Shown here piece after piece: positions 5,989-34,073 of a DNA stretch of 64,000 nt (its first letter is position 1; each line of letters opens with the position of its first letter). The notes below the pieces were generated by a model that saw nothing but the letters and a program-made list of their open reading frames with translations, had not been told where the DNA came from and made no database searches. Both the position numbers and the translations under genes were made by a program. The stretch is from Phosphitispora fastidiosa. GTDB taxonomy: Bacteria > Bacillota > Thermincolia > Thermincolales > UBA2595. The stretch lies in assembly GCF_019008365.1 (NCBI RefSeq), contig NZ_JAHHUL010000004.1, positions 124,001 through 188,000 on the forward strand, given 5' to 3'.

Positions 5989-6137
5989 CACTCTCACTCC
6001 TTTCTGTTTCTGCTTACTAAGGCTTACTTTCCTATCTGTCAAAAAAAGGTTATGACTGCAAAGTAGTAAAATAATAATTTTTAGGGGTACACTAATCTTG
6101 GTAATTCCAAAATACTCTTGCGAACGGTGATAATACT

Positions 6138-12565: not shown

Positions 12566-12886
12566 TTAGACGCCCAAAAAGTTACCGATAGCTGCCAGGG
12601 CGCCCCAAATTTGAGCCATGGCAATACTTAAGCAGGAAAACGCAGCCACTATCTTGATCAGCTTTGAAATGTTCCCGCCGCCTAACACGTTAGATATCTG
12701 CATGGCAATGTAGGCAACTGTGGCAATCAACATTAATTGCAAAATAGCTTCCCCGGGGCCCCCGACAAAAGTTTTTTGCATTACCATTCGCAGCCCTTTA
12801 TCCTTGACGGCTGCACAAGCATAATCAGGTTGGCACAATAACAAAAAAATAGGTAAAGGTAATGAAGCATACTTAAGAAACCTCAT
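12566..12886 (-). CDS. Small membrane protein, VirB2/TrbC pilin-like topology
   Basis: A 106-residue protein with a signal-peptide-like N-terminus (hydrophobic residues about 6-22, ending ACAAV) and two further hydrophobic segments (about 47-65 and 78-103) separated by a short GGGN-containing loop. That arrangement resembles VirB2/TrbC-type pilins, but sequence identity is not certain; a phage or integrative-element membrane subunit is equally possible. The ATG overlaps the upstream stop as ATGA and follows GGAGGTG, so it is translationally coupled to the replication-relaxation-like gene. Confidence 0.65.
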   Translation of the reverse strand: MRFLKYASLPLPIFLLLCQPDYACAAVKDKGLRMVMQKTFVGGPGEAILQLMLIATVAYIAMQISNVLGGGNISKLIKIVAAFSCLSIAMAQIWGALAAIGNFLGV

Positions 12887-13539
12887 TTTAAACACCTCCG
12901 CAATTCTTCAAGGAGTTTGACGCTGAACCTTAACCCGTTCGCATTGTCCTCCTGAATTTTGCGGAGGATTTTTTCTTTTCGGTTCTCTGTCTGACATACT
13001 ATTAATACCGGAGGGAACTTATCTGTAAGCGTAACCCACCACCTCTTGTAACCACGGTTTATCTGTTCAAACAGCTTGTTGTATAATCTGACCTTGTTGA
13101 AATCATTTCTATCACTATGATTTTCCCCCTCAATAAACATGAATCGAAACCTCTCAGTAACAGTGTTTTTTATGGCGCAGAACCCGTCGGGCCGGAGGAA
13201 AGAGTAATCCGGTTCATACTTAAAACAGTGGGTTTTTTCCCAACACGCTTTTTGAAGTTCGATATAAACACGAACCCAATTCAATAATATCCGGTGCTGC
13301 CAGTGTGCGGTTTTTTCACCATATACATATCCTTCGTTGCTGGCCCATCGCTCTACCATGCCTTTACGGTGGAGCTTCAACATGCGTTCCTGGGCCTTGC
13401 GTTTGGCAACCTCATAAGTTTTAAACTCGGTTAACGTAAAGTGCAAGAAAATGATCTGCTGTATATTAAGTGTTTTGTAATCCTCAAGAGTAGCTAATAT
13501 GGAATTATCCCGGCAGTAGCCTCTTTGCACAAGGTTCAA
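12883..13539 (-). CDS. Replication-relaxation family-like protein
   Basis: A 218-residue protein with an N-terminal winged-helix-like half (residues about 10-75, charged helices) and a C-terminal alpha/beta half containing YSFLRPDGFCAIKN and MFIEGENHSDRNDFNKV, the layout of the Replic_Relax family found on Gram-positive plasmids, integrative elements and phages. The start is TTG, 5 bases after AGGAGGTGG. It overlaps the FtsK-like gene by 35 bp. A role in plasmid-like replication or transfer is inference from the family name and from its FtsK partner. Confidence 0.65.
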   Translation of the reverse strand: MNLVQRGYCRDNSILATLEDYKTLNIQQIIFLHFTLTEFKTYEVAKRKAQERMLKLHRKGMVERWASNEGYVYGEKTAHWQHRILLNWVRVYIELQKACWEKTHCFKYEPDYSFLRPDGFCAIKNTVTERFRFMFIEGENHSDRNDFNKVRLYNKLFEQINRGYKRWWVTLTDKFPPVLIVCQTENRKEKILRKIQEDNANGLRFSVKLLEELRRCLK

Positions 13540-14629
13540 TGTCCCACCTCCTAGCCTCCATATTATTTACTATTTTCTTTGCTTTTTCTATGGGAAGGTA
13601 CATGGTTTGAACCTCACTCAGCTTCATTCCAAACTTGAAAATTCCGCGGCCCTTTATTGCCGGCAACCAGGCAGCCATACTGTTCTCTTCACCCAGGACC
13701 ATCCTCGAATCTATCTCTGACGGCACAAGATAACAGAGCCTTGCTGAATAAAGCATCCTGGCATCACCAGCGGCCTCACCAAAAGCCTTTACGGAAGGTC
13801 TTTGAGTGCCAGTCACGATGTGCAATCCAACAGCCCTTGACATTCTAAGTAAACGGTGGAGCATGACATGAGTATCTTTATCGCGGATCTCTGCTAATTC
13901 ATCAATCACAATAATAATAAGCGGCATGTCACCTCCCTCATACTGCTGAATCTTAACGCAGCCCGCCTTTTTGAGAATCTTAACCCGCCTATCATGTTCT
14001 TTGTTCAATCCCTCGAGTAAATTGTAAATTTGTTCATCTTCTTCGGCCAGCACAACATGTTTGGACAAGTATCCAAAATCTAATTGTTTCGGGTCAATGA
14101 TAAATATCCGAGCGAAAGGCAATAGTGACAATATTGCCTGGTGCAGGAAGTTTGATTTTCCGAAACCGCTCTCCCCGGCAACTAACATGTGTGGCGCATC
14201 GGCTAAGTCTAACCATTCAACCCCTTTGGGGGTATAACCTATTGGTATCGGCAATAACATTTTGGGCGGTTCCAAGGCTTTATAGGGTATCTTAGAGGGC
14301 AAGTTGTTAACTTGAATATCCATCTGTAAAACACCATCAAATGTCATAACTATAAACGAATTTACCGCATCAGAGAAATAGTTTTTCTTCCTGAGCACTG
14401 ACTGAAAACTAATCCCAGGCGGGAGCCTTACTACCAAATGCCAGCCATATTCTGTTTTCTTTCGGTTAATTATTACCGGCTTCCGGTGATCCTTTGTAAT
14501 AAAACCAAGATTATCAAATGTTTCAAGAACCTTAATTGGAATATCATGGTCCTTAAACGTGGGAACATATCTCCACCAATGATATTTCAGCATTTTTAGA
14601 TCAAGGACAGGTTCCTGCTTTTTGGGCAA
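13505..14629 (-). CDS. FtsK/SpoIIIE-type DNA translocase ATPase
   Basis: A 374-residue P-loop ATPase. After a 125-residue N-terminal region comes GESGFGKSNFLHQA (Walker A, near residue 155) and MPLIIIVIDELAEI (Walker B, near 235), then GTQRPSVKAFGEAAGDAR, as in FtsK/SpoIIIE and the TcpA-type coupling ATPases of Gram-positive conjugative elements. It has no membrane segments, so it would work as a soluble motor or with a partner. The start is TTG at 14629, seven bases after AAAGGAGG; the open frame further upstream crosses a strong terminator and is not coding. Confidence 0.85.
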   Translation of the reverse strand: MPKKQEPVLDLKMLKYHWWRYVPTFKDHDIPIKVLETFDNLGFITKDHRKPVIINRKKTEYGWHLVVRLPPGISFQSVLRKKNYFSDAVNSFIVMTFDGVLQMDIQVNNLPSKIPYKALEPPKMLLPIPIGYTPKGVEWLDLADAPHMLVAGESGFGKSNFLHQAILSLLPFARIFIIDPKQLDFGYLSKHVVLAEEDEQIYNLLEGLNKEHDRRVKILKKAGCVKIQQYEGGDMPLIIIVIDELAEIRDKDTHVMLHRLLRMSRAVGLHIVTGTQRPSVKAFGEAAGDARMLYSARLCYLVPSEIDSRMVLGEENSMAAWLPAIKGRGIFKFGMKLSEVQTMYLPIEKAKKIVNNMEARRWDIEPCAKRLLPG

Positions 14630-17251: not shown

Positions 17252-17291
17252 AGAACAGTCCAGAACTTAATCCTGGACTGTTCTTTTTTTA
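17252..17291 (+). terminator. Terminator of the small plus-strand gene
   Basis: AGAACAGTCCAG and its exact complement form a 12-bp stem with a 9-base loop, followed by seven T residues. The T tract overlaps the stop codon of the convergent giant gene. Confidence 0.9.
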
Positions 17292-20200
17292 TAATGGTCC
17301 ACCTTTAGTCCTTAGGGCATTGGTTATTGCCTTCTGAACCTTGTAATCATAGTACTTTAACATGTCCTGCACCTGCACATCACTTAATTGTGCTTCAAAA
17401 GGAACATCAGGTATTGGGCTCTGATAAATATATCCCGCTGCCAATTTTTGCAAATAACTCATCCTAAGGTTGAATATCTTTTTCTGTTCCGGTGAAATGT
17501 CAGCGCGTTTTGCAATATCCCTTTGGGCGGCTCGCATATCCGACATTTCCCTGGCAAACATATTGCGAACCGGAATAGAGAGAATTAACCGGACATCTGA
17601 TTCTTTCAGCTTTTTACGAAGGTTTTCATTAACATATGTTGCGGTATCTTCTGCAGATAAGCCTCTTGCCCGGGCCTGCTCTTCCCATTGCTTTTGCCAT
17701 AACCCAGACGATTTATAGATCTGTTCTGCTCTTGCCTTGTCTTCGTAGAACTTATCAACTATCCGGCTACCACCCTCACCGGGACCGTAAATCAATGAAC
17801 CAATAACCGGCCAGTATTCAACCCCTGGCCTATCGTCACCCTTCAGCCACTTAAGCGGGTTTAACGGATTGCTCAAAATGTTGGTCACGGTCTTACCAAT
17901 GCCGCCGAATGAGTTTTTCATAAAGTAGTCAATCATTCTTGGGCTTGGTCCTTTATCAGTAAACACCGCAACAGCCTTCGCCATATTAATGGCAAATTTG
18001 GATGTGCCGGTACTAAACCTGTCCTGTGGCAGCAAGTTTTGTTCCCGTTCCGGTTCAATCGGATTCCCGAAGGAGTCTTTGCCTGAATAAAGGCTAATTA
18101 TTGTATCTATCAACATAGATGTCATGGGAACCCCAAAAGATGTTTTAACAGCTGATTTAAAATCGGTCAACGGTTTCCTTTTGTTGGGTTCATCAGTCAT
18201 GGCCCAATCCAGGAACCTTTCCAGCATATTTGCCGGCAGCGCATATTCGTACGGCTTCGCCAGCGCAATCCGGTAATCTTTGGTCCCCGGTATCGGGAAC
18301 CACCAGTACCGGTCCCGTGACTCCGAAGGCATGTCCTTGTACTTATCATCATCACTTGACAGTGCCCACGCCAGCAGGGTCAATGGCACCATATATATTG
18401 CCATTCTCATTAAAGTAGTATATGGTTTATCCTTGACTTGGCGGCTGAACCGGTAAATACCTTGAATACTGCCCTGCATAAACTGAACCGTCCTGGCATA
18501 CTTCCTAAAACCTTCATGGATACCGTGAAGCCCAAAGTTAACCAGGATTTCACGCGAAGCATAAGCGGCTTCAAGGAGAGCCTTTTCCACATCCGGGGCA
18601 AGTTCATCCGAAACTTCTCCTGCCATAAACTCTTCATAGGACACTCCCAATGGTTTAAGCTCTCTTTTGAGTACAGCTTCAAACTCAGCCAGCCTTGGCA
18701 TTTCTTCAAGAATTCGGAGAGCTTCCAAAGGCGAAGTAACCACCCGAACCAGTGCCCCGGTTGCTGTCCGTTTCCACCCCGGTACTGGAGTTGCCATCAG
18801 ACCATCAGTTACCGATGCCCTCAATGCCCCGTTAATAACTTCCTGTGGTGCAGAACCATAGCCACCGGATTGAACATACATATCCATGACTTCTTGGTTC
18901 ATCCCAATAGCCGTACCAACGCCTTTGATAAAATCAGCTATTAAGGACCGTTCGCCCATGCCGGCCTTAGACTGTACTTTAGACACAATAACATCACGCA
19001 TGATAGCGTTTGTTACATACCGGACGTTGGCCAGGGCACCAAACCGGCCTATCTGGGTCAGGTAAGCAAGAGTTTTGGCAACAATATCAACGGTTATCGG
19101 TTTCATGGAAAGAGCCGCCCGGTAAATGTCCGGAGCCACCCTCATATAAACATGCCGCCCGCCGTGACGTGCCATAAGGATGGTTTCCCGCTGACCAATG
19201 TCGCGCAGACCGCCAGGCATGAACATCCTGATAACCCGTTCTTCATCCTCAATATTTATTTCTCCATCAAAATGTCTGGCCATATCCTCTACGGACACAG
19301 AAACACTTTTAATGGGTGCCTGGATGAAGTCACCGAACAAACCCATGTTAGGCTGCCTAATGGACCCTTCTATGGCCTGCATAATCTTTTCGATTTCTAC
19401 CGCCAGGACTGTATCGTTGAGCCTGGTAATGGAGGCCTCAATAAAATTCATTGTCTGCCCTTCATGGCCCTTAAACCGGCGCACACCCTCACCGGCTGCC
19501 CGCCTATTATTTCCCGAACCATGATACTCCTGCTCACCGACATGATACAAGGGCAGGTAAATATTTGAACCGGCCCGGATATGTTCCGCATCTTCTTCGC
19601 TTATCACTTCACCACGGACCAGCAGGCGCAGGTTAATCTCGCTGAGGATCTCAGCATATTCTTCAATGAGTTCAACCATTTCCGGATACCTTTCGCGGGC
19701 CAAATCAACCACCGTATCAAAATAAGCCTTTGTTTTTGGCAGCTCAAATTGCTTGGCGCCCTCCGATTCTTCCATCACATTGTACCGTTCCTGGTATCTC
19801 ATGGCATGGTATATCCAGTCCATCAATTGAACACCGTGAGGGATTTGCGCCGCCTCTTCGACTATCTCCTGGAGTGAACGTTTCCCAGGAAGAAGAAATC
19901 TCCCGGCTTCATCCCTGGCAGAGCCCGAGAACAGATTAGCAGCTTTTTCCCTGGCTGAACCTGAAACTGCCGCCAACTTAGCTGGGTCAAGTCCTTCATA
20001 TCCCTGCTCGACAGCTGCCCGGTACAGGTCTTTTAGGGGTATAGTAAAGTCTGCTAACTGGAACTGTAGTTTCTTAAACCATGGGATACGGTATTCCTCG
20101 CCCACATTAACCTTAACACGTTCGCCCGGTTTAGCTATAAGATTGGCCATTTGAGCCAGGGGATCTCCTTCAAGGTCAAGCTCTGCAATAGCAAGGATAG

Positions 20201-23200
20201 CATCAAACTGTCCACCAATTTCAGGGTTATTGTCCAGAAATTCATCAAACATTTCAGAAGTAACCGGCGCCATTTCGCGGGCCGTTTTGTTATCAGAGAA
20301 CCACAGCATCAGATATTCGGCAAGCCCCTCCTGAGTTTTCTTGCCTTCCGGAATATCGCCAGGGTACATCTCTTCAGCAATGTCCCACATCTCAGACTTT
20401 TTGGGTTTAAAATTGGCTGCATCCAGAAGGATAAAAGCAATACCGTGACCATGTTCATGGCCCATAACTCGCCAGTTTTCAGTTTTCTGTTTTTTGATTT
20501 TACCGGTTTTGCTATATTTACTGAACGAACCTTCGGTCCCTCTGATATGCCTGCCGGAACGAAGTACCGTATTAAGGAGTTGAGATAGTTTTTCGCCCAT
20601 TTCACGGGCCGCTTTAGGCGAAATATTCTCTGCCCTGGCCGTTAATTCGCTGGGATCAGTAAGCTCTTTTTCGATGGTAGGTGCAGGTTTTTTAGCCTTT
20701 TTCTTCTTTTTAACTTTATGTTTCTTGGCGAAGGCAAATTCTTCATCCTGTAGGTCTTCTTCAATAATCTCTGGTGATTTAGTAGACATTTGGGCCTTTG
20801 TTACGACATACATTCCTGCCTTCTTCTCAATTGTCGCGTCTTCCGGAAACGCTTCCCGGATTTCGTTTTCATAGTCAGCAAAATTCCTGTTTTCCTGCCA
20901 TGTAGATGTACCATCAGCAAATTCTAATTGTGCACCCTTGCCAGACCCATTCCCTTTGTAAACCGTTATTATGGCTTTGCTTCCTGGTTTTAACAGAGAA
21001 TACAGGAAGTCAATTACACTCTTACGTTCTTCAGCAGTAGGAATAACATTTAATACATTATTAAGAGCTACACCGTCAGCACCTTTGTTTTTTTCAATTC
21101 TGGCAAGAACTGATTCATTGTGCTCCGTATCCATGGCATAAGGATCATAAACAAGGTTTTCAATTCCATGTTGAGCCATGAATTGAGTTCCTTTTTCATA
21201 TTTTCCTCCGCCGACATCTGCCACAAGCATTCCCTTTGTAAATATTTTCATTGCAACTGCCTTTTTTAATCCTGCAGCCACCTGGTTTAAAGAAGTTTTT
21301 TGTGGAGAATGAACAAGAGAATATTCATTGGAGGAAGAATTAATGTTTTTGAGTACAGAGTCCGCTTTTTTTCGCACAGATTTGCTTGGCAGCGAAAACT
21401 CTTCATTCACACCTGGCGAAACCATGTCTACCACGGGCCTGTACTTAATTACCTTCTCAATAACCTGGGCTGACATTGCCCCCGTAGGAACGAAAAACCT
21501 AGTTTCCCAATCAATCCGTTCAATAAAAATCCCTTCATTTTTAAGCTGTCCCATATGGGGATAAAGATCCCTGCCAATTAACTCAATTCGGTTTTCTCCT
21601 GAAACCCTGCGCCGTACCATTCTCCACTCGTTAGACAGGTAAATAGTGTAATTCTCTTTAAGTATCTTGTCAGACAACTCAGTCGGGCTTAAGGTTTGTT
21701 TGGTCCTGTCAGCGCCGAGTTTTTTTAGTGTCAGGTCAATAGCCTTTTCAGGAACGATACGTCCCAGTAGCATCCGGCCATCTTCTGTTTTGACACGAAT
21801 TACCCTAACGTGACCTGTCGGCAGCCTATCCCAGATAGGAAGCAGTGCGCCGCTTATCAGGTTAACTTTTTCAACACGAAACTCCGAAACCTTTCCCAGG
21901 GCTTCGTTCCATGCTGTTTCGGCTTCTGATTCAGGGATTTCTCCCCAGTTGCCTTTTTCAAAATCAGCCTTAGATATGTTGTGGCTGCTTGATTTAACCT
22001 GACCTTGAACCTGATAGATTTCTACCACGCTTCCATTTGACAGTGTTCTGTGACCATATCGCTTAACCGCATAAACCCGCTCACTTTTGGTGTTCCTGTA
22101 AAAACCCTTCAGCTTTGGTAATCGTGAAGCATTTTCAAAAGAAACCTTTTTGTTTTTGTGATGTGCCTCCAGTGCAAAATATTTAGTTTCAGCTCCGGAC
22201 GATTCATCAATAAACACGGACTTCTCTTCAGATACAACAACCTTGTCTGCCCGGTAATTCTCTAAACCAACATCAAGGGTCCCATCTGCAATGGCTTTTT
22301 CTACTTTAGCATCAAGTCTTTTTATGAATTCTTCAAAGATTTTGTTTTGCAGTGTAGATTCAAGAGCCAGAATGCGGTTAAGGAATTTGGTAATGTCTCT
22401 CAAATCAGGGTTTTCGTTACTGACGTTTCTATTTTCGTCAAGCATGTTACTAAGGCCCATCTTCGACAGCAACTCTTTAGCGGTAATCCCTTCTATTTGT
22501 CCACCGGCCAAATTCTCATAGAACTGCTGCAGAGCATCCCTGGCTAAATCACTTTCAAGGTTATCCTTGGCACTAAAAAGCCCCTGGCTGCCGGTTTGCC
22601 TCTGTCCCTTTGTCAATGCCCCCAACTGGTCTAATCGCCTGGCAATAGATGAAATAAAACGTTTCTGCCCTTTAAGATTAGTTGTAACCAATACATAATG
22701 AGGGGCATTGGCTTGGTTGGTCCGGTGAGTCCTTCCAAACCCCTGGACAGCGTTATCCGCTCTCCAGCCAGCCTGAATCAAATAGTGAACCCTGCGCCGC
22801 TGATTTTTCTCTTTAAGGGAAGCATGGTAACTGCGCCCAGTTCCACCGGCATCAGAGAACACCAGTATCTTTTTCTTATCGTCAAGAAAAGCCTGAGCGT
22901 CAGCGGAAGCATGTTTTGGTGTTCTTGATTCAAGTTTTGCCTTCATGCGCCCATCATCCGACTCACGAACAACCCTGCGGGTACGTCCGGTAATTTCGGC
23001 AACCATTTCAGTCCCAAACTCATTCAAAATAATCTCCAGCGGGCCTTCCGGCACTTTTAACGCACCCAGTTTTGACAGAAGTTCTTCCTTCATTTCCATT
23101 GCTTCCTGGTTTACAACCGGATTCCCATGACTATCAACCACCGGCCTAGAACGAATATTGCCGTTATCATCTTCATACTCTTCATATTGTTGAATAGGAA

Positions 23201-26200
23201 AACTCTTGTCAAGATACTGCATCAACATATCACGGGGAGTGAGATCTAAATCTTCCAAACTGTCTTCTTCGTTCATTTTGGCAATGGCACGATTCTGAGC
23301 TGCCTCATTAGTGTTAACCAATTGCATTACAACAGCGTTTCCGTTTGCCAAGTCTTTTTTTACCTGCTCTACCACTGAAGGCATCTGGACGGAAGTTAGT
23401 ACCTGATTAAAGAATCTCTGCTGAGCCACCCAAAACTGACCTATGGCCCTGCCCTTGGAGTAACCGTCTTTGCCCTGACCGGTTTCCTCTAATGCTTTAT
23501 TAACGTTCTGCAGGACAATCTGCCATGCTTTAGCCATTTCATCATATATTTCCGTCTGTTCAGGGGTAAGATTATGTTCAAGCGTACCATAGGTTACTCC
23601 GTCATAGCTCAGGTTACGGGCAATATAAGCGCCCATGGCCTTCATATCGCGGGCAACCAGCTCCATTGCCGCTAACCCACCGGCCTGAACCTTGTCGATG
23701 AAATCAAGCTTGTTGGCAAACGGAGTGCCTTCCCCCCAGAGACCCAACCGGTCAGCATAAGCTAAATTAGAAACCTCAGTGGCGCCGGTTGCTGAAGCAT
23801 ATACAATCCTGGCATCAGGTAAGCGTTTTTGCAATTCTATGCCGGCAAGTGCCCTGGTAGAAGGTTTTTTTGCCCCACGTTTTCTTTTTTGGGTTATGCT
23901 GTTCTGCATTTGATGAGCTTCGTCGAAAACAATAACCCCATCGAAATCCTTACCCAACCAGTTTATTACCTGGTCAATCCTTGCAGATTTACCTTCCTTA
24001 ACAATCAGTTCACCGGTTTTAGAAGAACTTAGGCCTTGACCAAGAGTATCATAAGTTGTAAATAAAACCCCGTCCTTTTGTTTGACTGGGGTGCCCATTT
24101 TAACATTGCCTAGCTCAAACAACAGTTTCTTGTCGCCGCCAGTAGCCTCAAAGTGTTCAAGAGAATCATTAAAAAGTGGAGCGTTCTTACTTATCCAGAC
24201 AGCTTTCTTGCGTCCCTGTCTGATATTATCCAAGATAATACCGGAAATTTCCCGGCCCTTACCAACTCCCGTACCGTCCCCAATAAAGAAACCCCTCCTT
24301 GTTCCGTCTGGAAGGGTTTGTTGATGAGCTTGCCCGGCATACACAACAGATTCTAACTGTGCTATTGACAACTTACCTTCACTAACTGTTTCCTTGGGTA
24401 AGTTAGGTGTATATGTAGGTGTTGGAGGTTCTACGGCAGCCATAGCTGCGCTTTGGGCAAGTGCGCCGGGGTGTTGTTTTGCGCCCGGAATCTTTAGTTT
24501 TTGAGGCATATAATCAGTAAAAACAGCATCAGACAATTCCTGATCGGTTTGTTGTACTGCCTCTGACTCTGACTCAACCTTAATCTCCGTTTTTGCGGTT
24601 TTGGCAGGTTTTACTGTTCCGCTTCCCGGCTCCTTGGCTGTTTCTCCTGGAGTGCGTACATCAGTCTTTCCGTCAGGTACTCCGCTGCTTCCAGTGGTGT
24701 CTTCCTGGCCAGTTTCTTTGGATTGACCCACGTTCCCTGCTGGTTCCCCTGGTCCGGGCCCTCCCTGGTCAGAAGGTTCATTGCCTGTTCCGGGTTCCCG
24801 TGGTACAGGAGTTTTTCCACTTGTTGTCTCAGGTCGTGGTGTTCGTTCCTGTTTTCCGGGTTGTTGGGTATTATCTTCCCGCTCTGCAGCCCCCAACTTA
24901 TCAGTTGGTACAGGTACAGTAGGCTCGGGTCCGGTTTCTGGCCCGCCCTGTTCAGTAGGTTTTTCGCTAGCAGGTTTACCGGCTGCCTGTTGAGTCGGTC
25001 TATTCTCTGATGTAATCCGGTCATTCTTAATCGCCTCCAATAAAGGAAGTGCATCTTCCAACGTATCTACACTATTAACAACTGTGCTGTTAATTCCTTT
25101 AGGCAATGGACCTGTTTTGTCAATAACCACCAATTGAACGCCGAAATTAGTGCCATACTTGCTATAATTCTTCCCATTTATGCCTATGTTTGCACGGATA
25201 TTGTAAGTTTCCCGTAGTTTATTCCACCAGCCCTTGAAGTTTGCGGCATTGTCAGACATCCCCTGTCCAACAATCGCCACCAGTCTGCCTCCTGGAGCCA
25301 GCTTCTTTAATGCCTGTTCCATGTGCATGATTGCATTTTTAGTATCATTCTTACTTCTTATTCTTGCGGTCGATGAAAACGGTGGATTCATTATAATAAC
25401 GGTAGGTTTGATATCCTTTGGTAAGACATTGTTTAATTGTTCGGCATTCTCAGTGAATACCTGATCAAATCCCATTTCTTTTAGCACTTCAGCGCGTCTG
25501 GGAGAAAACTCGTTAACGATGACCTCTCTTGCTCCGGCCGATTTTGCAAATACCGCTAACCCACCAATTCCGGCACTGGGCTCCAACACAATATCGTTAT
25601 GGGAAATGTTTGCTACCCATGCGGCAATATACGCTATATTGGGTGGAGTAGAAAATTGCTGCAACCTGTCCTGTTCTTCTGTCCTCTTGGTTTGAGTGGG
25701 GATTGCCTCCAATATTTCCTGCCTGATAGATTCTAAGATGCGTTTAGCCTGCTCAGCACTAACCATCGGGCCAACACTCTTTTTATGTTCCAACAGGTAG
25801 AGGTTAACTCCCAACTCCAAAGCGTCATAAGCATCTTTGGAAGTGTATTTCTTTTCTGCCTGAGTACCCTCAAAGAACCGATCGGCAATCTTAAATAGCT
25901 CAGCGGAAGTGAATTTTTGGCCTTGTACCAGCATATCCTTAACAGCAACAGCCACTTTTCTGCTTGGAGTAGCCCGTTCTTCTGGCTTTGGTTCCTCAGT
26001 AACAGGTTCTTCTTGCTTTGATTGTACCTCATTTTCCCCAGTTTTGGCAACTTCTTCTTGTCTGTCAATTTTTCCCTCTTCTTTTTGTGGCTGCACCTTC
26101 GCATCTGCCTTGCCAGCCTGATAAAACAATTGTGTTAGAAAATGTGGAAATTGTGAATCTATTTCCTGGTCAAAAGGAACATCAATTGTCCTGATGCCCT

Positions 26201-28289
26201 CTTTGCCAGCCTGATACCATTTTTCAAAAAACTGCCTATATGCCTGCACATATGGGTCTTCTGGCTTGTTTAAGTCAGCCATAACATGTTCGTTATTGGC
26301 CCATTTTTTAAAGACATTGTTACCGGTTCTGCCGTAAACAAGAAGTTTTTTGGGTTCCAGTTGTTTTGGTTTTTCTCCGTCAACAGGCTCCTTTGCAGGT
26401 TCTACTGTAGACTCCTTGCCAGATTCCGTTGAAGCCTCTGTTAAAGATTCTTTTGCAGGTTCTGTTGAAATCTCCGCTAATGATTCCGGTTCGGTCTTTG
26501 CCTGTTCCTCTGCGGAGCTAATAGATGGCTGTTGCATAGGTTCAACAGGCTGCTCTACCGGCTGTACAGGAGGCTCTGCTGGCGGTTCTACTGGTTGATC
26601 TGTTGGTTGTTCTACCGGCTGTGGTACAGGCTGCTGTGGTTCAATAGGTTGCTGTACCGGAGTTTCCCCTGGTTGCTGTATGGACTGCCCCGCAGGTTGC
26701 ACCGGCTGAATAGGCTCCGGTTGCTCAGCCGGTTGAGCCTGTTCGCTCTTTTGTTTTTCGACCGCCTCTTTTTCCACATCTGCAACGTCCTGGATTACTT
26801 CTTGCATTGAGTCGCCGACAACCTTATCGCCTTCCTCGGTCCCGGCAAACTCATCGAACACCTGTTTAACTGCTTCTTCTACAGGTGTGCCGGCATCAAC
26901 TTTTTCCTGAACAGCAGTTTCCAGAGACTTTCTGGCTTCTTTTGAAGCCTTATTGTATGCTCTGGTCTGCATTTCATGCTGCAAGGCACCAATAATACCG
27001 GGGCCACCGCCAAGGACCAACCCCTGTGCAATAGATTCCTGCATAGCCGGGTCAAAATTAACTTCGTCACCCAAGGAACTGCGCTGGATTACTTCCTGTG
27101 CGCCTTCTTCCAGTCCTTCAGATGCTCCTGCCATACCAACCCTGCCCGCACCTACAGCTGCTCTTCCCAACTTAGAATCTGCTGCCGCACCAAGCATTCC
27201 CCCTAACCACTTAGGGGCCGGACTAAACATGGCAGCCAATTCCGGCACGTTGGTAACGGATAACAGGGCAGCGTTTTTCAGAAAAGCATCATCAGCAGCC
27301 TGCATTGCCTCTTCTTCCGATAGGCCCCTGTTTTTTGCCTCGGTGTAAACTCCCCCGGCCTCCAGTGCAGCTTCTAACGGTACACCGCTCGAGAGCCCTC
27401 CCAATGTCTTTAATAATTTTGTTCCCCAGTTCCCCAGTGAACCCAGTTTGCCCCATCCGGCAGCTCCGGCTACAACCCCCCCGGCCTCGGCACCCAAAAT
27501 TGTTGGGATAAGGAGGGATGCCATTAGGGGAACGTTTCTCATGACGTTTCTGGTATAAAAACGCGGGTCAGCAAGAGTTTTCCATCCCTCAAACTTAATA
27601 GGCGGCGACCAATCTGGACTAGTATATAAATCTGCGGTATATTCGCCAAACTCACGCATTCCTTTACCGGTTTCACTCAAGCCCTCGATGCCAAACTTGT
27701 CACCAGCCCATTCCATACCGCCACCATAAGACATGGGAATGTTTGAATACATCCCTGCAACAAGTGACTTAAAGGCATCGGTATTGCCAATTGTCACAAG
27801 AGGTTTTTCAATAAAATCTGGCACTGTTTCACCTTGCAGGGACTTATGCAATGCTGTCGGGTTCTCCAGTGTTGGAATCAAAGGGTCTTGGGCATGAACA
27901 ACATCAGAAACCGTTGGAACAGTATTCCCCAGGAAGTCAGGCATAACAGGAGAAGATGGCTTAAATGGCACCGTGCCCTGTGGGACAGAACCTTCTCCGG
28001 GCAATGCCTCAGGTGGAAGGGCAGGCGTTACTGCTTTCTTTTTGAAATAATCAAACCCTCCTGCCGGAACCAAAACAGGGTTGCCGTTTGCGTCCTGAGT
28101 CCACCCGCCTATTTCTTCACTGGGTATGCTGCCAGGGATATTGCCCGGTACGCCCCCTGGAACACCACCGGAAACACCAAAAGCGCTCCCACTTGGAGTA
28201 GGAACGCTTCCACTGTTCTTTTTAAAATAATCAAAACCACCTTCCGGCACCAATATGTCTCTTCCGTATTCATCCTTGATCCAGGGCAT
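17289..28289 (-). CDS. Giant polyvalent virion protein: methylases, helicase, zincin
   Basis: This 3,666-residue protein occupies 11 kb. In order: a duplicated 24-residue motif ending GGFDYFKK (residues about 3-26 and 62-86); Gly/Ala-rich hydrophobic stretches (about 255-430); a Pro/Gln/Val-rich linker (about 520-600); a class I DNA methylase with EPSAGIGG and NPPF near 968; a second low-complexity linker (about 1110-1230); a Strawberry-notch-like SF2 helicase with GTGVGKGREIS near 1340, FDEAHQMQN near 1456 and GFGRTHRTNQA near 1851; a second methyltransferase with VADVGGGKYEKG near 2358; a Lys-rich linker; a zincin with HEHGH near 2611 and EGLAEY near 2655; helical polyvalent-associated regions; and one membrane segment near 3297. 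This matches the phage polyvalent-protein theme (P1 DarB is a known methylase-helicase example) in which an ejected protein shields incoming DNA. Ejection is inferred from its place after the virion genes. Confidence 0.85.
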   Translation of the reverse strand: MPWIKDEYGRDILVPEGGFDYFKKNSGSVPTPSGSAFGVSGGVPGGVPGNIPGSIPSEEIGGWTQDANGNPVLVPAGGFDYFKKKAVTPALPPEALPGEGSVPQGTVPFKPSSPVMPDFLGNTVPTVSDVVHAQDPLIPTLENPTALHKSLQGETVPDFIEKPLVTIGNTDAFKSLVAGMYSNIPMSYGGGMEWAGDKFGIEGLSETGKGMREFGEYTADLYTSPDWSPPIKFEGWKTLADPRFYTRNVMRNVPLMASLLIPTILGAEAGGVVAGAAGWGKLGSLGNWGTKLLKTLGGLSSGVPLEAALEAGGVYTEAKNRGLSEEEAMQAADDAFLKNAALLSVTNVPELAAMFSPAPKWLGGMLGAAADSKLGRAAVGAGRVGMAGASEGLEEGAQEVIQRSSLGDEVNFDPAMQESIAQGLVLGGGPGIIGALQHEMQTRAYNKASKEARKSLETAVQEKVDAGTPVEEAVKQVFDEFAGTEEGDKVVGDSMQEVIQDVADVEKEAVEKQKSEQAQPAEQPEPIQPVQPAGQSIQQPGETPVQQPIEPQQPVPQPVEQPTDQPVEPPAEPPVQPVEQPVEPMQQPSISSAEEQAKTEPESLAEISTEPAKESLTEASTESGKESTVEPAKEPVDGEKPKQLEPKKLLVYGRTGNNVFKKWANNEHVMADLNKPEDPYVQAYRQFFEKWYQAGKEGIRTIDVPFDQEIDSQFPHFLTQLFYQAGKADAKVQPQKEEGKIDRQEEVAKTGENEVQSKQEEPVTEEPKPEERATPSRKVAVAVKDMLVQGQKFTSAELFKIADRFFEGTQAEKKYTSKDAYDALELGVNLYLLEHKKSVGPMVSAEQAKRILESIRQEILEAIPTQTKRTEEQDRLQQFSTPPNIAYIAAWVANISHNDIVLEPSAGIGGLAVFAKSAGAREVIVNEFSPRRAEVLKEMGFDQVFTENAEQLNNVLPKDIKPTVIIMNPPFSSTARIRSKNDTKNAIMHMEQALKKLAPGGRLVAIVGQGMSDNAANFKGWWNKLRETYNIRANIGINGKNYSKYGTNFGVQLVVIDKTGPLPKGINSTVVNSVDTLEDALPLLEAIKNDRITSENRPTQQAAGKPASEKPTEQGGPETGPEPTVPVPTDKLGAAEREDNTQQPGKQERTPRPETTSGKTPVPREPGTGNEPSDQGGPGPGEPAGNVGQSKETGQEDTTGSSGVPDGKTDVRTPGETAKEPGSGTVKPAKTAKTEIKVESESEAVQQTDQELSDAVFTDYMPQKLKIPGAKQHPGALAQSAAMAAVEPPTPTYTPNLPKETVSEGKLSIAQLESVVYAGQAHQQTLPDGTRRGFFIGDGTGVGKGREISGIILDNIRQGRKKAVWISKNAPLFNDSLEHFEATGGDKKLLFELGNVKMGTPVKQKDGVLFTTYDTLGQGLSSSKTGELIVKEGKSARIDQVINWLGKDFDGVIVFDEAHQMQNSITQKRKRGAKKPSTRALAGIELQKRLPDARIVYASATGATEVSNLAYADRLGLWGEGTPFANKLDFIDKVQAGGLAAMELVARDMKAMGAYIARNLSYDGVTYGTLEHNLTPEQTEIYDEMAKAWQIVLQNVNKALEETGQGKDGYSKGRAIGQFWVAQQRFFNQVLTSVQMPSVVEQVKKDLANGNAVVMQLVNTNEAAQNRAIAKMNEEDSLEDLDLTPRDMLMQYLDKSFPIQQYEEYEDDNGNIRSRPVVDSHGNPVVNQEAMEMKEELLSKLGALKVPEGPLEIILNEFGTEMVAEITGRTRRVVRESDDGRMKAKLESRTPKHASADAQAFLDDKKKILVFSDAGGTGRSYHASLKEKNQRRRVHYLIQAGWRADNAVQGFGRTHRTNQANAPHYVLVTTNLKGQKRFISSIARRLDQLGALTKGQRQTGSQGLFSAKDNLESDLARDALQQFYENLAGGQIEGITAKELLSKMGLSNMLDENRNVSNENPDLRDITKFLNRILALESTLQNKIFEEFIKRLDAKVEKAIADGTLDVGLENYRADKVVVSEEKSVFIDESSGAETKYFALEAHHKNKKVSFENASRLPKLKGFYRNTKSERVYAVKRYGHRTLSNGSVVEIYQVQGQVKSSSHNISKADFEKGNWGEIPESEAETAWNEALGKVSEFRVEKVNLISGALLPIWDRLPTGHVRVIRVKTEDGRMLLGRIVPEKAIDLTLKKLGADRTKQTLSPTELSDKILKENYTIYLSNEWRMVRRRVSGENRIELIGRDLYPHMGQLKNEGIFIERIDWETRFFVPTGAMSAQVIEKVIKYRPVVDMVSPGVNEEFSLPSKSVRKKADSVLKNINSSSNEYSLVHSPQKTSLNQVAAGLKKAVAMKIFTKGMLVADVGGGKYEKGTQFMAQHGIENLVYDPYAMDTEHNESVLARIEKNKGADGVALNNVLNVIPTAEERKSVIDFLYSLLKPGSKAIITVYKGNGSGKGAQLEFADGTSTWQENRNFADYENEIREAFPEDATIEKKAGMYVVTKAQMSTKSPEIIEEDLQDEEFAFAKKHKVKKKKKAKKPAPTIEKELTDPSELTARAENISPKAAREMGEKLSQLLNTVLRSGRHIRGTEGSFSKYSKTGKIKKQKTENWRVMGHEHGHGIAFILLDAANFKPKKSEMWDIAEEMYPGDIPEGKKTQEGLAEYLMLWFSDNKTAREMAPVTSEMFDEFLDNNPEIGGQFDAILAIAELDLEGDPLAQMANLIAKPGERVKVNVGEEYRIPWFKKLQFQLADFTIPLKDLYRAAVEQGYEGLDPAKLAAVSGSAREKAANLFSGSARDEAGRFLLPGKRSLQEIVEEAAQIPHGVQLMDWIYHAMRYQERYNVMEESEGAKQFELPKTKAYFDTVVDLARERYPEMVELIEEYAEILSEINLRLLVRGEVISEEDAEHIRAGSNIYLPLYHVGEQEYHGSGNNRRAAGEGVRRFKGHEGQTMNFIEASITRLNDTVLAVEIEKIMQAIEGSIRQPNMGLFGDFIQAPIKSVSVSVEDMARHFDGEINIEDEERVIRMFMPGGLRDIGQRETILMARHGGRHVYMRVAPDIYRAALSMKPITVDIVAKTLAYLTQIGRFGALANVRYVTNAIMRDVIVSKVQSKAGMGERSLIADFIKGVGTAIGMNQEVMDMYVQSGGYGSAPQEVINGALRASVTDGLMATPVPGWKRTATGALVRVVTSPLEALRILEEMPRLAEFEAVLKRELKPLGVSYEEFMAGEVSDELAPDVEKALLEAAYASREILVNFGLHGIHEGFRKYARTVQFMQGSIQGIYRFSRQVKDKPYTTLMRMAIYMVPLTLLAWALSSDDDKYKDMPSESRDRYWWFPIPGTKDYRIALAKPYEYALPANMLERFLDWAMTDEPNKRKPLTDFKSAVKTSFGVPMTSMLIDTIISLYSGKDSFGNPIEPEREQNLLPQDRFSTGTSKFAINMAKAVAVFTDKGPSPRMIDYFMKNSFGGIGKTVTNILSNPLNPLKWLKGDDRPGVEYWPVIGSLIYGPGEGGSRIVDKFYEDKARAEQIYKSSGLWQKQWEEQARARGLSAEDTATYVNENLRKKLKESDVRLILSIPVRNMFAREMSDMRAAQRDIAKRADISPEQKKIFNLRMSYLQKLAAGYIYQSPIPDVPFEAQLSDVQVQDMLKYYDYKVQKAITNALRTKGGPL

Positions 28290-28307: not shown

Positions 28308-28664
28308 TTAATACCACCCGTTTTGCTGGTGAAATGCCACAGCTTTTTGAGGCGTACCATACCTTTTTTTGATATAATCTATACCCGCCACAACCTGCTT
28401 TACCGGGTCAGACGTTTTCTGATAACCATAATTCCCCCATGTGCTGTCAAGAAACTGCATCAATCCGTAGGCAGTGGATTTCGGGTTTTGTGCTGTTGGA
28501 TTTCCGCTTGATTCTTCACCAATAATCCAAGCTAATGGTTCGGCCCAATCAGCCCCTACACCGGCAATTTTTATTGCATCATTTATCCATGAAGTAACGT
28601 TTCCACCCTTGGTGTTTCCGTTGCCAGTGCTATTTCCCTTCGGTGTAGGGGTTACGGCTCCCCC
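28308..28664 (-). CDS. Lytic transglycosylase domain lacking a start codon; -1 frame of upstream gene
   Basis: This frame encodes an SLT-like domain: IIGEESSGNPTAQN (catalytic Glu), STAYGLMQFLDSTWG, and KAVAFHQQNGWY at the C-terminus. It would cleave peptidoglycan glycan strands. The frame is open from a TAG at 28725-28727 but holds no ATG, GTG or TTG before the catalytic core. The only conventional start follows the catalytic Glu. It is in the -1 frame of the 264-codon gene at 28652-29446, overlapping its 3' end where CAG GGG GAG gives a run of five G (28660-28664). A -1 frameshift there would give a 379-residue fusion. A true indel or a sequencing error are the alternatives. Confidence 0.75.
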   Translation of the reverse strand, partial: GGAVTPTPKGNSTGNGNTKGGNVTSWINDAIKIAGVGADWAEPLAWIIGEESSGNPTAQNPKSTAYGLMQFLDSTWGNYGYQKTSDPVKQVVAGIDYIKKRYGTPQKAVAFHQQNGWY

Positions 28665-29446
28665 TGGGGAGGGTACATGTTCATGTAAGGGTTTGGTACG
28701 CCACCGGAAGAGTCCAGGCTGCCGCTATATTTAGCAAAGTATTCAGGCCACTTCATTGCCATAGCTTTAAGAATAGATGCTACGTCTGCACCCTGGCCAG
28801 CAATTTGCGAACCAAACTTACTCAAATAATCAAAAGCGGCTTCCGGACCATCGGCACCAAGCACCTGGTTGATGTAAGTGTTGGTTGCTATGTAATTTTT
28901 GTTTTGAAGCTGATTCTGATCATCCATCATATTGTGATATCTTGACTGTTCATTAATTCCAGCCATGCTTGTACTGTATTGGTTTTGAAGCCCCTGACGT
29001 TCCAGGTTTAACCCTTCATTTTGTACATGTGCCGGCCATGTTAACCCACCCTCAAACATTCCCGTTACACCGGCCCTCTGTGCCTTTTGTCCCATGCTCC
29101 AGTTATCACCGGCATACCCCGGCGCAAACTGCCCTGCTCCGGTCTGGAAGCCTTTATTCGGGTCAGATCCCCACAACTCCTGCGGCATGTCAATTGGGCT
29201 GCCACCGGAAGCAAGATAATCGCCCCTTACTTTGCTGGCCTGCATATTGATATCGTTTTGCTGTTCCGGATTTGCAGTTGCCCATTGGTCACCCAATGTT
29301 TTCAGGGCTTCCATGAACGGAGTTGCCCGCTGCTCTTTTTGGTATCCGGTGATAGCATTTGCCAGCAAAGGAGCAGCCTGATAAGGGTCCAATCTCTGCT
29401 GTCCACCGTTTGGAGATAATTGTGCCAGTATTTCAGCTAAATCCAT
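28652..29446 (-). CDS. Virion-internal protein, putative
   Basis: A 264-residue, Gln/Asn/Gly-rich protein without recognised domains. It starts MDLAEILAQLSPNGGQQ, and its later half is helical and polar. It sits between two other unrecognised structural proteins and the giant virion gene, the place of internal or ejection proteins in short-tailed phages. Its C-terminus (MNMYPPQGEP) overlaps a transglycosylase-domain frame in -1, so it may be made in a short form and a long enzymatic form. Confidence 0.7.
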   Translation of the reverse strand: MDLAEILAQLSPNGGQQRLDPYQAAPLLANAITGYQKEQRATPFMEALKTLGDQWATANPEQQNDINMQASKVRGDYLASGGSPIDMPQELWGSDPNKGFQTGAGQFAPGYAGDNWSMGQKAQRAGVTGMFEGGLTWPAHVQNEGLNLERQGLQNQYSTSMAGINEQSRYHNMMDDQNQLQNKNYIATNTYINQVLGADGPEAAFDYLSKFGSQIAGQGADVASILKAMAMKWPEYFAKYSGSLDSSGGVPNPYMNMYPPQGEP

Positions 29447-29460
29447 TCAAGACCCCTCCT

Positions 29461-30552
29461 TTAACCGTACATAAACTGACTTAGAAGCTGAGTTAACATG
29501 GTCTGGTCGATAGACTTGTCCTGCAGGGCCATGTTTGCTATTCCCATTGCCTGTTGCCACTTCTGCTGCTGTGCTTGCTGTTCCATGGCCCGTGACATCT
29601 GTTCCAGCTCCGAAAGCCGCTGAGATTCCAATGTACCGCGCCTGGCCTCTGTGTCGGTCATCATTCTGTTTGCAGATGCTTCAGCTGCAGCCAATTCTTC
29701 TGCCAATCCGGCCAATTTCGCAGCCTTCTCCCCCTCTTTTTCCTGAGACCACTGGATAACAGGGGTTGTTCGCTTCTCTGTTTCCCAGTTCACAACACCA
29801 CTCCTGCCCATGCCGCGGGCAATAGCGTTTTCCAGGGCATAATTCCTAGCTTCTCCAAGCATGGCCTGAGTACGCTCCGGGACACCGGAATAAGCGGCTT
29901 CTGTTTCTGTCTTTGCTTTGCCGTAACCAGTAGTCGCCTTTTGAATCATGTCAGTGATTGAAGACAGGACAGGATCAACCTGTAAGGTTGCATACTCACT
30001 GGCTTGGGATTTCATCTCATTAGCAGACGGCGGCGTATACGCGGAAGGCTGGTTAAGTATGCCCAACAAGAGTTGTTCATAATATGGCCAGTTATTGGCA
30101 TTTGTTTGTTGTGGCTGTTGCTGTTGAACTGGCTGCTGCTGGGTTTGTTGACTAGGTTGATTGGTTTGATTTGAAAAGTACTGCGGATATGCCTTCATAA
30201 ACGCTGCAGCCTGGTCAGGGTGCGAAAGATTCCCCTGTCCCTTGCTGGTTATTTCGTTTGCATATGATTGAGGATCTCCCTTGAAATAGTTATTCAAAAT
30301 CTCTGTATATGATGGAACATAGGATGACCCGGAAGAACCCGAACTGCTCTTAGAACTACTGGAGCCAGACGAACTCCCAGATGACCCCGAACCTGAACTG
30401 GACGAACCGCCACTTGGAGCCTTTTCACTTTTATAACTGCCATCAGCGTTAACGCTTGTTATTCTGTAGTTGCCGCCGGCAGTTTTTACAATGTCACCAG
30501 ACTTCAGTCCTTTTGGAGCCTTGCCATCAGGGTTTACTTGTACTATTGCCAC
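29461..30552 (-). CDS. Virion-associated protein with Ser/Gly linker and coiled coil
   Basis: A 363-residue protein. Residues 1-45 look like a small beta domain (KSGDIVKTAGGNYRITSVNA); residues about 46-80 are almost only Ser and Gly; a Gln/Pro-rich stretch follows (about 130-150); residues about 270-345 form an Ala/Glu/Gln-rich coiled coil. No enzyme motif is visible. Low-complexity linkers and helical tails suit proteins packed inside a virion. Function is unknown. Confidence 0.7.
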   Translation of the reverse strand: MAIVQVNPDGKAPKGLKSGDIVKTAGGNYRITSVNADGSYKSEKAPSGGSSSSGSGSSGSSSGSSSSKSSSGSSGSSYVPSYTEILNNYFKGDPQSYANEITSKGQGNLSHPDQAAAFMKAYPQYFSNQTNQPSQQTQQQPVQQQQPQQTNANNWPYYEQLLLGILNQPSAYTPPSANEMKSQASEYATLQVDPVLSSITDMIQKATTGYGKAKTETEAAYSGVPERTQAMLGEARNYALENAIARGMGRSGVVNWETEKRTTPVIQWSQEKEGEKAAKLAGLAEELAAAEASANRMMTDTEARRGTLESQRLSELEQMSRAMEQQAQQQKWQQAMGIANMALQDKSIDQTMLTQLLSQFMYG

Positions 30553-31384: not shown

Positions 31385-32233
31385 TTATTGGAGAGGCAGG
31401 CCCATGGCACCCCTTATTTGGTCAGCCCAAACATGAGCCGCTTTTGCACCGTCAATATCTTTGTGCTTACTCTTTTCATCCCAGACCTTTTTGCATCTGT
31501 TTATTTCTTTAACCCCTTCTTCTTTATCTATCTTGTACCATTCAAGCCTTTCTGTGCATGTCAATGGATATTCTTTTATTAATTCGGTTTTTGTTAGTAT
31601 CCAAACCTTTTCCTCAGGTCCTGGCCGTGAATAACATGGTTTAAATACAACCCTTCTTGCTAACTCTGACCCAAAAACACTTCTAAAGTCTTCAGCAAAT
31701 AATTCTTCCGGATTATTATAATATTCATCATATCCGTCACGGTGTTCCTTTTTGTCTGGTTGGCGAATTTTATTAACATAATCGCGTAAATCCTTATCAG
31801 ATAAATACCTAAACCTAACTAGATGCCCTATGCCATGAGAAACAAAGTAACGATTCAGGGAAGCATTATAAGGGATTTCGATGCCGTTCACGGTGATTCT
31901 TACATTAGGTCTTTGAAAAGCAAAAAGATACAAAATACCGTCTCGGGTAGCAAAATCACCAAGGGAGCCGTACTTTTTATGGGTGAATCTTTTGTGGACC
32001 ACATTAATTGGTATTTGTGTTTCTTTTAAGAGTGGAAAGCTATTTTCAAGAAAAGACAGTTCATATACCACATCAGCAACAGAGAACATTTCTTCATCAC
32101 TTTTTATGGGATGTGTACTGCCATAACCCAAAGAAATGTCTCGAAATTCTGTTATGGTTACTTCGGCTAAAGCGGTAGAAGAATTTAGCAACATAACAAG
32201 TACTAGCAATATAGAAATTAAATATTTACGCAT
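31385..32233 (-). CDS. Secreted zincin-like protein with degenerate active site
   Basis: A 282-residue exported protein. A clear signal peptide (KYLISILLVLVMLLNSSTALA) is followed by a domain with VSHGIGHLVRF near residue 135 and NPEELFAEDFRSVFG about 45 residues later. That spacing and the EELFAEDF helix are those of anthrax-lethal-factor/Pro-Pro endopeptidase-type metalloproteases (HExxH plus downstream Glu), but the catalytic Glu is replaced by Gly (HGIGH). It may bind a metal or peptide without cutting. The ATG at 32233 follows GAGGTG. It lies downstream of a spike gene and could be a lysogenic-conversion factor. Confidence 0.7.
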   Translation of the reverse strand: MRKYLISILLVLVMLLNSSTALAEVTITEFRDISLGYGSTHPIKSDEEMFSVADVVYELSFLENSFPLLKETQIPINVVHKRFTHKKYGSLGDFATRDGILYLFAFQRPNVRITVNGIEIPYNASLNRYFVSHGIGHLVRFRYLSDKDLRDYVNKIRQPDKKEHRDGYDEYYNNPEELFAEDFRSVFGSELARRVVFKPCYSRPGPEEKVWILTKTELIKEYPLTCTERLEWYKIDKEEGVKEINRCKKVWDEKSKHKDIDGAKAAHVWADQIRGAMGLPLQ

Positions 32234-32285
32234 TATTAAACACCTCACGCTCTAATTTAACCACTTATTGCCTTTGTTGTCAACA

Positions 32286-34073
32286 TTACACTCTGTTTCC
32301 AGCCACAGTTATGGTGCCAGTACCCGAATCTGAAAGGCTGCCAGTTACCCCGCTTGTTAAAAGGTCGTTATTTGTCACAACATTATCTTCGCAATCTATA
32401 TTGGCAATACTAATCCCGTATCGCGGTTGATTGGCAAGAGAGCCTTTTCTGCAGAGATTCAATTGCATGTTGTTTCTACTGGACCCTGAGTAAACGCAAA
32501 TATTATCATAGGTATTATTGGTCTTCTGGCTGTTTTCTGAGCATGTATTACTTGTTATACTGTTATCAGAAGAACCGTATGCTACATAAATACCTTGTTC
32601 TCTGTTTAACCTGCACGTATTACCGACAACATCATTGTTGGTGCCACCACTCAGGTAAATTCCTTTAGTACTCTCAAAACAGGTGTTGCCATTTATTGTA
32701 TTGTGATGAGAAAGAACATATATCCCAAAAATTGCTCCTCGGCACGAATTTCCCATGACTGTATTATTGTCTGCAGATATACTAATTGTTGCACTGTCAA
32801 TACCTCCGACAGATTCTAATACGTTCCCATTAATAATGTTCCCTTCAGAATTAACATATAAACGAATTCCATGTGCGGTTCCGGTCGTGATACCAATGTC
32901 TCTTATCGTGTTTTGAGAAACAATATTGTTAGTGGACTCGTTTAAATAAACACCGTAAGTCCGAAAGTTTTTCACCTGACAATCTGTTATGTTACAATTT
33001 ACCGCCTTTGCAAAATATATTCCAGTTGCCCCGCCTTTTAATTGGGCAATATTTTTGTTGCCATCAACTAAAATGTCCTTTACGCATATATTAATATTCC
33101 CATTTACCGTATCTGAGTTTGTAATTGCGATGGGCACACTTTGGGTATATATTGCCTTGATTACAGTTGAGTTGCCCTGCCCTTGTAATGTTACGTTTGA
33201 AGGCAAAACTATACTTCCGCTTACCATAAAAGTACCATCTAGCAATTCAATTTTCCCGCCAACAGCACCCAAAGCATTTATTGCTTGGTTTATCGTATCC
33301 TGGGCACTAGTAGACCCTGTAGGCACAACATAATCAGCGCGTTTTATATTTGTCGATGTATCCGTATCACCTACGATAAACGTTGCCCCAACCTTGGAAA
33401 TTTGATCCCCTGGAACACCGGCAACCGTTCCGGTAACATCACCTGCAAAGGCCACGCTGGCAGAAGGCAGGTAAGAGTTTTCTTCTGCGATAGATGGCTG
33501 TATAATAGCCGACTTCAATATCCCATCAGCATTTATATCCTGATCGACCATCCGGTAGGCCTGCACCCCAAAGGTATAATATTTGTTTGCGGGTTTCCCC
33601 TGGAAAATGATAGCCCTTTTTTCTGCACCTACATAGTGATCTGTTTCCTCTGCGGGATTAGTGCCAAAAGCATAAGCACCTGAGGTATCCCCGGACCGCA
33701 CCCACACAACAAACCCGTCAACATTGTAAGCGTCTCCCAAACCATCAAAGCTCCATTCAACACTTATATCTGCCGAACCATTAGTGTTAATGGTATGGTC
33801 AATTGCCGAGCCATCAGCAGCAATAACCGGGTCTGCCGGAACAGTGCTTATCCGGTCATTCCTGGTATCAAAATTCGTTGCTACCGCAGACCAGGAGTCC
33901 TTGTTTACCTCAACCAGTTCATTTGTCGGCACTCCGATACCGTTCTCATAAACCTGCAATTGGTTCACATAAAAGGTTAAACCTTCCATTATTGCATTAA
34001 TTTTGCGCGCCAGGGTAGATAAATCTTCGTCACCTGTTATTCTGTAAGGCATTTGAAAAGGTTGGTAAGCCAA
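32286..34073 (-). CDS. Beta-helix tail spike/fibre protein
   Basis: A 595-residue protein. Residues about 1-75 look like a virion-attachment helix region (TLARKINAIMEGLTFYVNQL), then a fibronectin/Ig-like part to about 210. From about 255 there is a right-handed parallel beta-helix of the NosD/pectate-lyase type, seen as repeated N-x-I-x-x-N-T turns (NNDVVGNTCRL, DNSITSNTCSE, NTINGNTCFE). Such spikes bind and often cleave surface polysaccharide. No catalytic residues can be assigned. Confidence 0.8.
   Translation of the reverse strand: MAYQPFQMPYRITGDEDLSTLARKINAIMEGLTFYVNQLQVYENGIGVPTNELVEVNKDSWSAVATNFDTRNDRISTVPADPVIAADGSAIDHTINTNGSADISVEWSFDGLGDAYNVDGFVVWVRSGDTSGAYAFGTNPAEETDHYVGAEKRAIIFQGKPANKYYTFGVQAYRMVDQDINADGILKSAIIQPSIAEENSYLPSASVAFAGDVTGTVAGVPGDQISKVGATFIVGDTDTSTNIKRADYVVPTGSTSAQDTINQAINALGAVGGKIELLDGTFMVSGSIVLPSNVTLQGQGNSTVIKAIYTQSVPIAITNSDTVNGNINICVKDILVDGNKNIAQLKGGATGIYFAKAVNCNITDCQVKNFRTYGVYLNESTNNIVSQNTIRDIGITTGTAHGIRLYVNSEGNIINGNVLESVGGIDSATISISADNNTVMGNSCRGAIFGIYVLSHHNTINGNTCFESTKGIYLSGGTNNDVVGNTCRLNREQGIYVAYGSSDNSITSNTCSENSQKTNNTYDNICVYSGSSRNNMQLNLCRKGSLANQPRYGISIANIDCEDNVVTNNDLLTSGVTGSLSDSGTGTITVAGNRV

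Follow-up and report, generated by a model that had tools for sequence, protein, structure and literature searches.

A putative programmed -1 frameshift that would append a lytic transglycosylase domain to an ejection-type protein of a podovirus-like prophage

The window analyzed here (the whole stretch of DNA, 64,000 nucleotides) contains a podovirus-like prophage of a Thermincola-like bacterium. Its genes are ordered portal, major head protein, head-closure-like protein, beta-helix spike, small genes, gene A, gene B, and polyvalent protein (Table 1). Solely from this gene position, we infer that genes A and B encode ejection-type virion proteins. The giant polyvalent protein is probably injected. 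Proteins of this class are thought to enter in this way, and some carry lysozyme or transglycosylase domains (PMC5512222). A short repeat with GGFDYFKK at its end occurs twice in the N terminus of the polyvalent protein (window 28040-28289). A protein with a signal-peptide-like start is encoded at window 31388-32251, between the spike and the ejection-type genes; the closest related phage, L004, is shorter here.

Table 1. Genes and sequence features at the gene B locus (window coordinates)
Feature	Position	Strand	Description
Gene B	28652-29446	-	0-frame product of 264 aa, terminated by TAA (28654-28652); flanked by gene A and the giant polyvalent protein within the virion-gene block
Gene A	29461-30552	-	363 aa; companion gene, synteny conserved
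Giant polyvalent protein	17289-28289	-	3666 aa; Strawberry-notch-type helicase, LPD38
SLT-coding open frame	28308-28724	-	-1 frame, stop to stop, without a usual start before the catalytic Glu
Catalytic Glu codon	28512-28514	-	Second E of GEESSGNP; invariant in 7 aligned SLT domains
Likely slip site G_GGG_GAG (G5 run)	28658-28664	-	One codon before the 0-frame stop; placed like the L008 and L011 heptamers
Alternative slip site A_AAC_CCT	28688-28694	-	Canonical heptamer inside the overlap; L004, which has no SLT domain, has A_AAT_CCT
Stem 5' arm CCCCUACACCG	28641-28651	-	Begins at the base following the stop
Stem 3' arm CGGUGUAGGGG	28553-28563	-	Within the SLT coding sequence, at the codons for Gly-Val-Gly-Ala

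Gene B ends in ...MYPPQGEP-stop and has no match to a PHROG or Pfam profile. Its AlphaFold2 model is poor (pLDDT 54), and it has no detectable sequence relation to T7 gp16. Relatives at the equivalent place share 83, 37, 33, 32, 30, and 30% identity. A search of genome contigs located gene B relatives only in two MAGs (a Thermincola MAG and a Firmicutes MAG from the family to which the window's genome belongs), genome contigs searched with the SLT domain gave no match, and a search of phage and plasmid sequences for gene B relatives found none.

A complete SLT domain (28308-28649) lies at the end of gene B in the -1 frame. The open frame that contains it has 138 codons between stops, ends in ...FHQQNGWY, and shares about 70 nt with the 3' end of gene B. 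The earliest ATG, GTG, or TTG is 191 nt beyond the 0-frame stop, 3' of the catalytic Glu codon. Gene callers miss the enzyme because there is no start codon. Among minus-strand genes of the window that can be extended in -1 or +1 by 80 codons or more, the absence of a start codon near the junction is unique to gene B and the SLT frame. The preliminary description of this DNA had reported both the startless domain and its -1 overlap with a putative virion gene, and we find both as it described them.

The domain matches Pfam SLT (PF01464, GH23) with E = 8e-12 and 45.2 bits, above the curated cut-off of 21.3 bits, and SLT-bearing PHROG families (tape-measure and transglycosylase) with E values down to 1e-23. 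The catalytic Glu-Ser, the GLMQ motif, and the SLT fold are all present. An AlphaFold2 model of the frame has pLDDT above 90 over most of residues 41-138 (block means 85-96), and its best PDB neighbours are the lytic transglycosylases MltF, phiKZ gp144, and MltE (Foldseek E about 0.002, probability 1.0). The nearest SLT sequences in named phages are tape-measure SLT domains of Gordonia and Corynebacterium phages (57-64% identity). The SLT stretch is real and most likely functional. A further SLT frame of 186 codons, 58% identical to the window SLT, occurs in another locus (L005 3555-4112); it contains a signal-peptide-like stretch, also lacks ATG, GTG, or TTG before the domain, and lies in a different setting.

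Two distantly related phages have an equally placed SLT domain: L008, with 62% identity in SLT and about 33% overall in gene B, and L011, with 42% identity in SLT and a fusion of genes A and B. In both, the SLT frame has no start codon ahead of the catalytic Glu region and lies in -1 to the upstream gene, whose end it overlaps. The gene A-B fusion of L011 is a single frame of 582 amino acids (5482-7227).

The window, L008, and L011 have a common layout: a slippery heptamer, one codon, the 0-frame stop, and a stem. The window reads G_GGG_GAG CCG UAA, after which CCCCUACACCG pairs with CGGUGUAGGGG. L008 reads C_CCA_AAG CAG UAG, and GCUCCGGUUCCG then pairs with CGGAGUCGGAGC; L011 reads A_AAC_CCU CAG UA, and GCCUCUGCCCCUG then pairs with CGGGGGUGGGGGC. 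The stems are 11, 12, and 13 bp long, start at most 1 nt from the stop, and are separated from the heptamer by spacers of 6, 6, and 5 nt, respectively. The sequence CCTCCCCA occurs just before or overlapping the slip site in the window (28665-28672), L008, and L011, and also in L004, in three different codon phases. CCUCC in this region is complementary to a Shine-Dalgarno sequence; the recurrence may be chance.

In all three phages, the SLT-domain codons for Gly-Val-Gly-Ala carry the 3' arm. All three of its wobble positions differ between the phages (GGT/GGA/GGG, GTA/GTC/GTG, and GGG/GGA/GGG), and each change is matched by the 5' arm, with A-U, U-A, and C-G at one position and U-A, G-C, and U-G at another. 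Each 5' arm pairs with its own 3' arm at 11 of 11 positions; swapped arms pair at 7-9 of 11 and are worse in all combinations.

We also estimated how often such features arise by chance, with the reservation that the window, L008, and L011 share ancestry and the figures are not fully independent. For each sequence alone, the stem length near the stop was reached by 20, 18, and 14 of 5000 dinucleotide shuffles and by 38-159 of 5000 synonymous re-codings (about 0.8-3%). The window and all loci together gave 671 distinct ORFs with 150 codons or more. An X_XXZ_ZZN heptamer placed exactly one codon ahead of the stop occurs in 11 of them and a stem of 11 bp or longer at the stop in 17; the two occur together only in the ORFs of L008 and L011. 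Minimum free energy z-scores clearly indicate structure in the window (-2.8) and in L011 (-4.4), but not in L008 (-1.2). A window fold ending at 28570, which excludes the 3' arm, gave a z-score of 0.1 and no structure; a longer fold showed the stem. When the 5' position was left free, stems of 10-14 pairs were found in 4 of 16 in-frame SLT genes. A long stem by itself is therefore no evidence; position and co-variation are what count. As sequence evidence, arms that differ and yet pair are better than the chance counts, and the stem, 5-6 nt after the heptamer and co-varying in three of three phages, is a putative frameshift stimulator.

L008 and L011, both distantly related, carry an equally placed slip site, stop, and RNA stem, which makes a real genetic device the most likely reading of the locus, ahead of an error in sequencing or a dead gene. 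Very probably this device is a programmed -1 frameshift at one of the two candidate sites, a prediction for which the comparative basis is the three known cases. We assign a probability of about 0.7 to such a frameshift with the slip at the G5 run. Most ribosomes would stop at the TAA of gene B and release its 264 amino acid product. Some would slip by -1 on G_GGG_GAG, aided by the 11 bp stem, and continue in the -1 frame to give a fusion of 379 residues, in which gene B residues 1-263 are followed by 116 residues with the SLT domain at their end. The predicted junction peptide is PPQGEAVTPTPK. We infer the slip, its frequency, and the "minority" of copies that would carry the SLT domain; likewise, the gene B product and the fusion would be virion (ejection) proteins, and the SLT domain would cut peptidoglycan during DNA entry, as the SLT domains of T7 gp16 and of tape-measure proteins do.

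An alternative is that an in-frame gene B-SLT fusion has lost one base, by decay or by an error in the sequence. A change of one base would open such a fusion, and the window heptamer is non-canonical, as this reading would have it. However, the identical -1 relation occurs in two independent phage contigs, the gene B stop aligns without gaps with the stop of L004, the stem beyond the stop is maintained by co-variation, and the SLT domain retains its catalytic residues and a fold predicted with high confidence. The startless cases are also in -1 in three of three and in +1 in none, which speaks against decay. We rejected error or decay because the layout recurs in L008 and L011, and consider it very unlikely.

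The programmed frameshift could instead take place upstream, at the canonical A_AAC_CCT, with a nearly identical product and the predicted junction peptide VPNPLHEHVPSPGG. This heptamer is in the 0 frame within the overlap and precedes the stop by 33 nt. It opens into the same -1 frame and is identical to the heptamer of L011; L004, without an SLT domain, carries AAATCCT in its place. In E. coli, A_AA.C_CC.U was not among the three failures in a test of heptamers, and C_CC.A_AA.G, the L008 motif, was the top of 64 heptamers, with 54% in the presence of a strong stimulator (PMC4066793). The heptamers of L008 and L011 fit the X_XXZ_ZZN rule. G_GGG_GAG does not: the P-site GGG would re-pair perfectly, and the A-site GAG would shift to GGA with a G-U at the middle position. 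There is little E. coli support for the G_GG.G tetramer, the signal of which was ascribed to initiation driven by a Shine-Dalgarno sequence (PMC4066793). Against the upstream site, A_AAC_CCT is 36 nt from the stem, compared with 5-6 nt in L008 and L011, and is therefore less likely as the main slip site. A heptamer would also arise by chance in a 70 nt overlap in about 1 of 10 cases (our estimate, at 1/256 per codon step). G_GGG_GAG was chosen because its position and stem geometry match those of L008 and L011; we clearly favour it, and a main slip at the upstream heptamer is possible but unlikely. The core of the original proposal, a -1 fusion at the G5 run, is well supported by the equally placed heptamers and co-varying stem in two diverged phages; the G5 run is non-canonical, and the upstream heptamer is a possible site.

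The purine run GGGGGAG resembles a Shine-Dalgarno sequence, and in E. coli reporters such sequences drove low initiation at AUA in the -1 frame (PMC4066793). The SLT domain could therefore be a separate protein made from a rare start (AUU or AUA) or by re-initiation after the stop. However, no AUG, GUG, UUG, AUA, or AUU occurs in the -1 frame 5-12 nt from GGGGGAG, L008 and L011 have no purine run at that place, and a separate start leaves the fixed position of the heptamers and stems unexplained. We regard this as highly improbable.

Not all relatives have the domain. The closest phage, at 83% in gene B and 95% in the major head protein, is L004, in which gene B stops at the aligned position with ...MYPPQGGP and is directly followed by the polyvalent protein; no SLT domain was found in its whole 46.9 kb record. 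L002, L003, L009, L010, L087, and L092 also have no SLT domain after gene B. All seven manage without it, as would be expected if the SLT frame were an unexpressed, neutral remnant of a lost gene. Conservation of the catalytic residues and an equal layout in three diverged phages argue against a remnant, which has, in our view, a very slim chance of being correct. L060 is a distant relative in which a related SLT domain forms, in frame, the C-terminal part of a separate gene of 241 amino acids (1090-1812), with a gene-A-like frame on one side and the next genes on the other. As to whether the domain is fused in frame elsewhere, as the original proposal considered, homologues thus differ: it is in -1 in L008 and L011, and in frame in the separate gene of L060. 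Given its absence from several relatives and its occurrence in a separate gene in L060, the domain is a movable part of the gene block.

T7 gp16 has an N-terminal transglycosylase domain that is needed when peptidoglycan is highly cross-linked (PMC8954989). As in T7, the prophage has an SLT-type domain associated with a putative internal or ejection protein of a podovirus, beside other core proteins. In T7 gp16, the domain is N-terminal, in frame, and present in every copy, whereas here it is C-terminal, in -1, and predicted on a fraction of copies, and the host belongs to Bacillota. The comparison to T7 gp16 in the preliminary description is a fair analogy of task and does not extend to homology. 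In siphophages of Gordonia and Corynebacterium, the SLT domain is in frame inside the tape-measure protein, whereas here it follows a short gene of a podovirus-like prophage.

The proposed mode of expression has precedents. In the T3 major coat protein and the capsid protein of Lactobacillus phage A2, a -1 frameshift near the gene end extends some copies, and lambda G-GT has a slippery site near the gene end, a low-level -1 fusion product, and a conserved layout (PMC5009743). The prophage resembles T3 and A2 in that a -1 shift near the gene end would add a domain, but theirs is Ig-like or structural and here it is an enzyme domain. The G-GT product serves long-tailed phages as an assembly chaperone, unlike the wall enzyme here. 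In this prophage, the polyvalent protein adjoins gene B, and the SLT domain is on the small neighbouring gene by way of the putative frameshift.

To our knowledge, the frameshift extensions of phage virion proteins described so far add binding or structural domains. A literature search of partial coverage found no case of a startless -1 SLT domain. We think it reasonably likely, with less confidence than in the frameshift, that podovirus-like phages conserve a recoding device in which the stem lies within the SLT coding sequence and slippage sets the fraction of ejection protein with the enzyme, and hence the dose of wall-cutting activity per virion. If so, a protein beside an injected-type polyvalent protein would receive a wall-crossing enzyme in a set ratio. 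This suggests how ejection-type proteins in short-tailed phages of Bacillota may gain wall-cutting activity. Startless -1 SLT domains can now be searched for as a class.

A second -1 event, which the preliminary description placed at the spike, was not found. The spike frame (32289-34073) begins past the end of the preceding gene without overlap, has a TTG start behind AGGGGTGATGATC, and contains the beta-helix in one frame. The spike had been named without coordinates, and another gene may have been meant. Elsewhere in the window, the gene at 12886-13566 has TTTAAAA 7 bases before its stop, and the -1 frame is open for 105 codons beyond; this frame has an ordinary start 10 bases before the stop.
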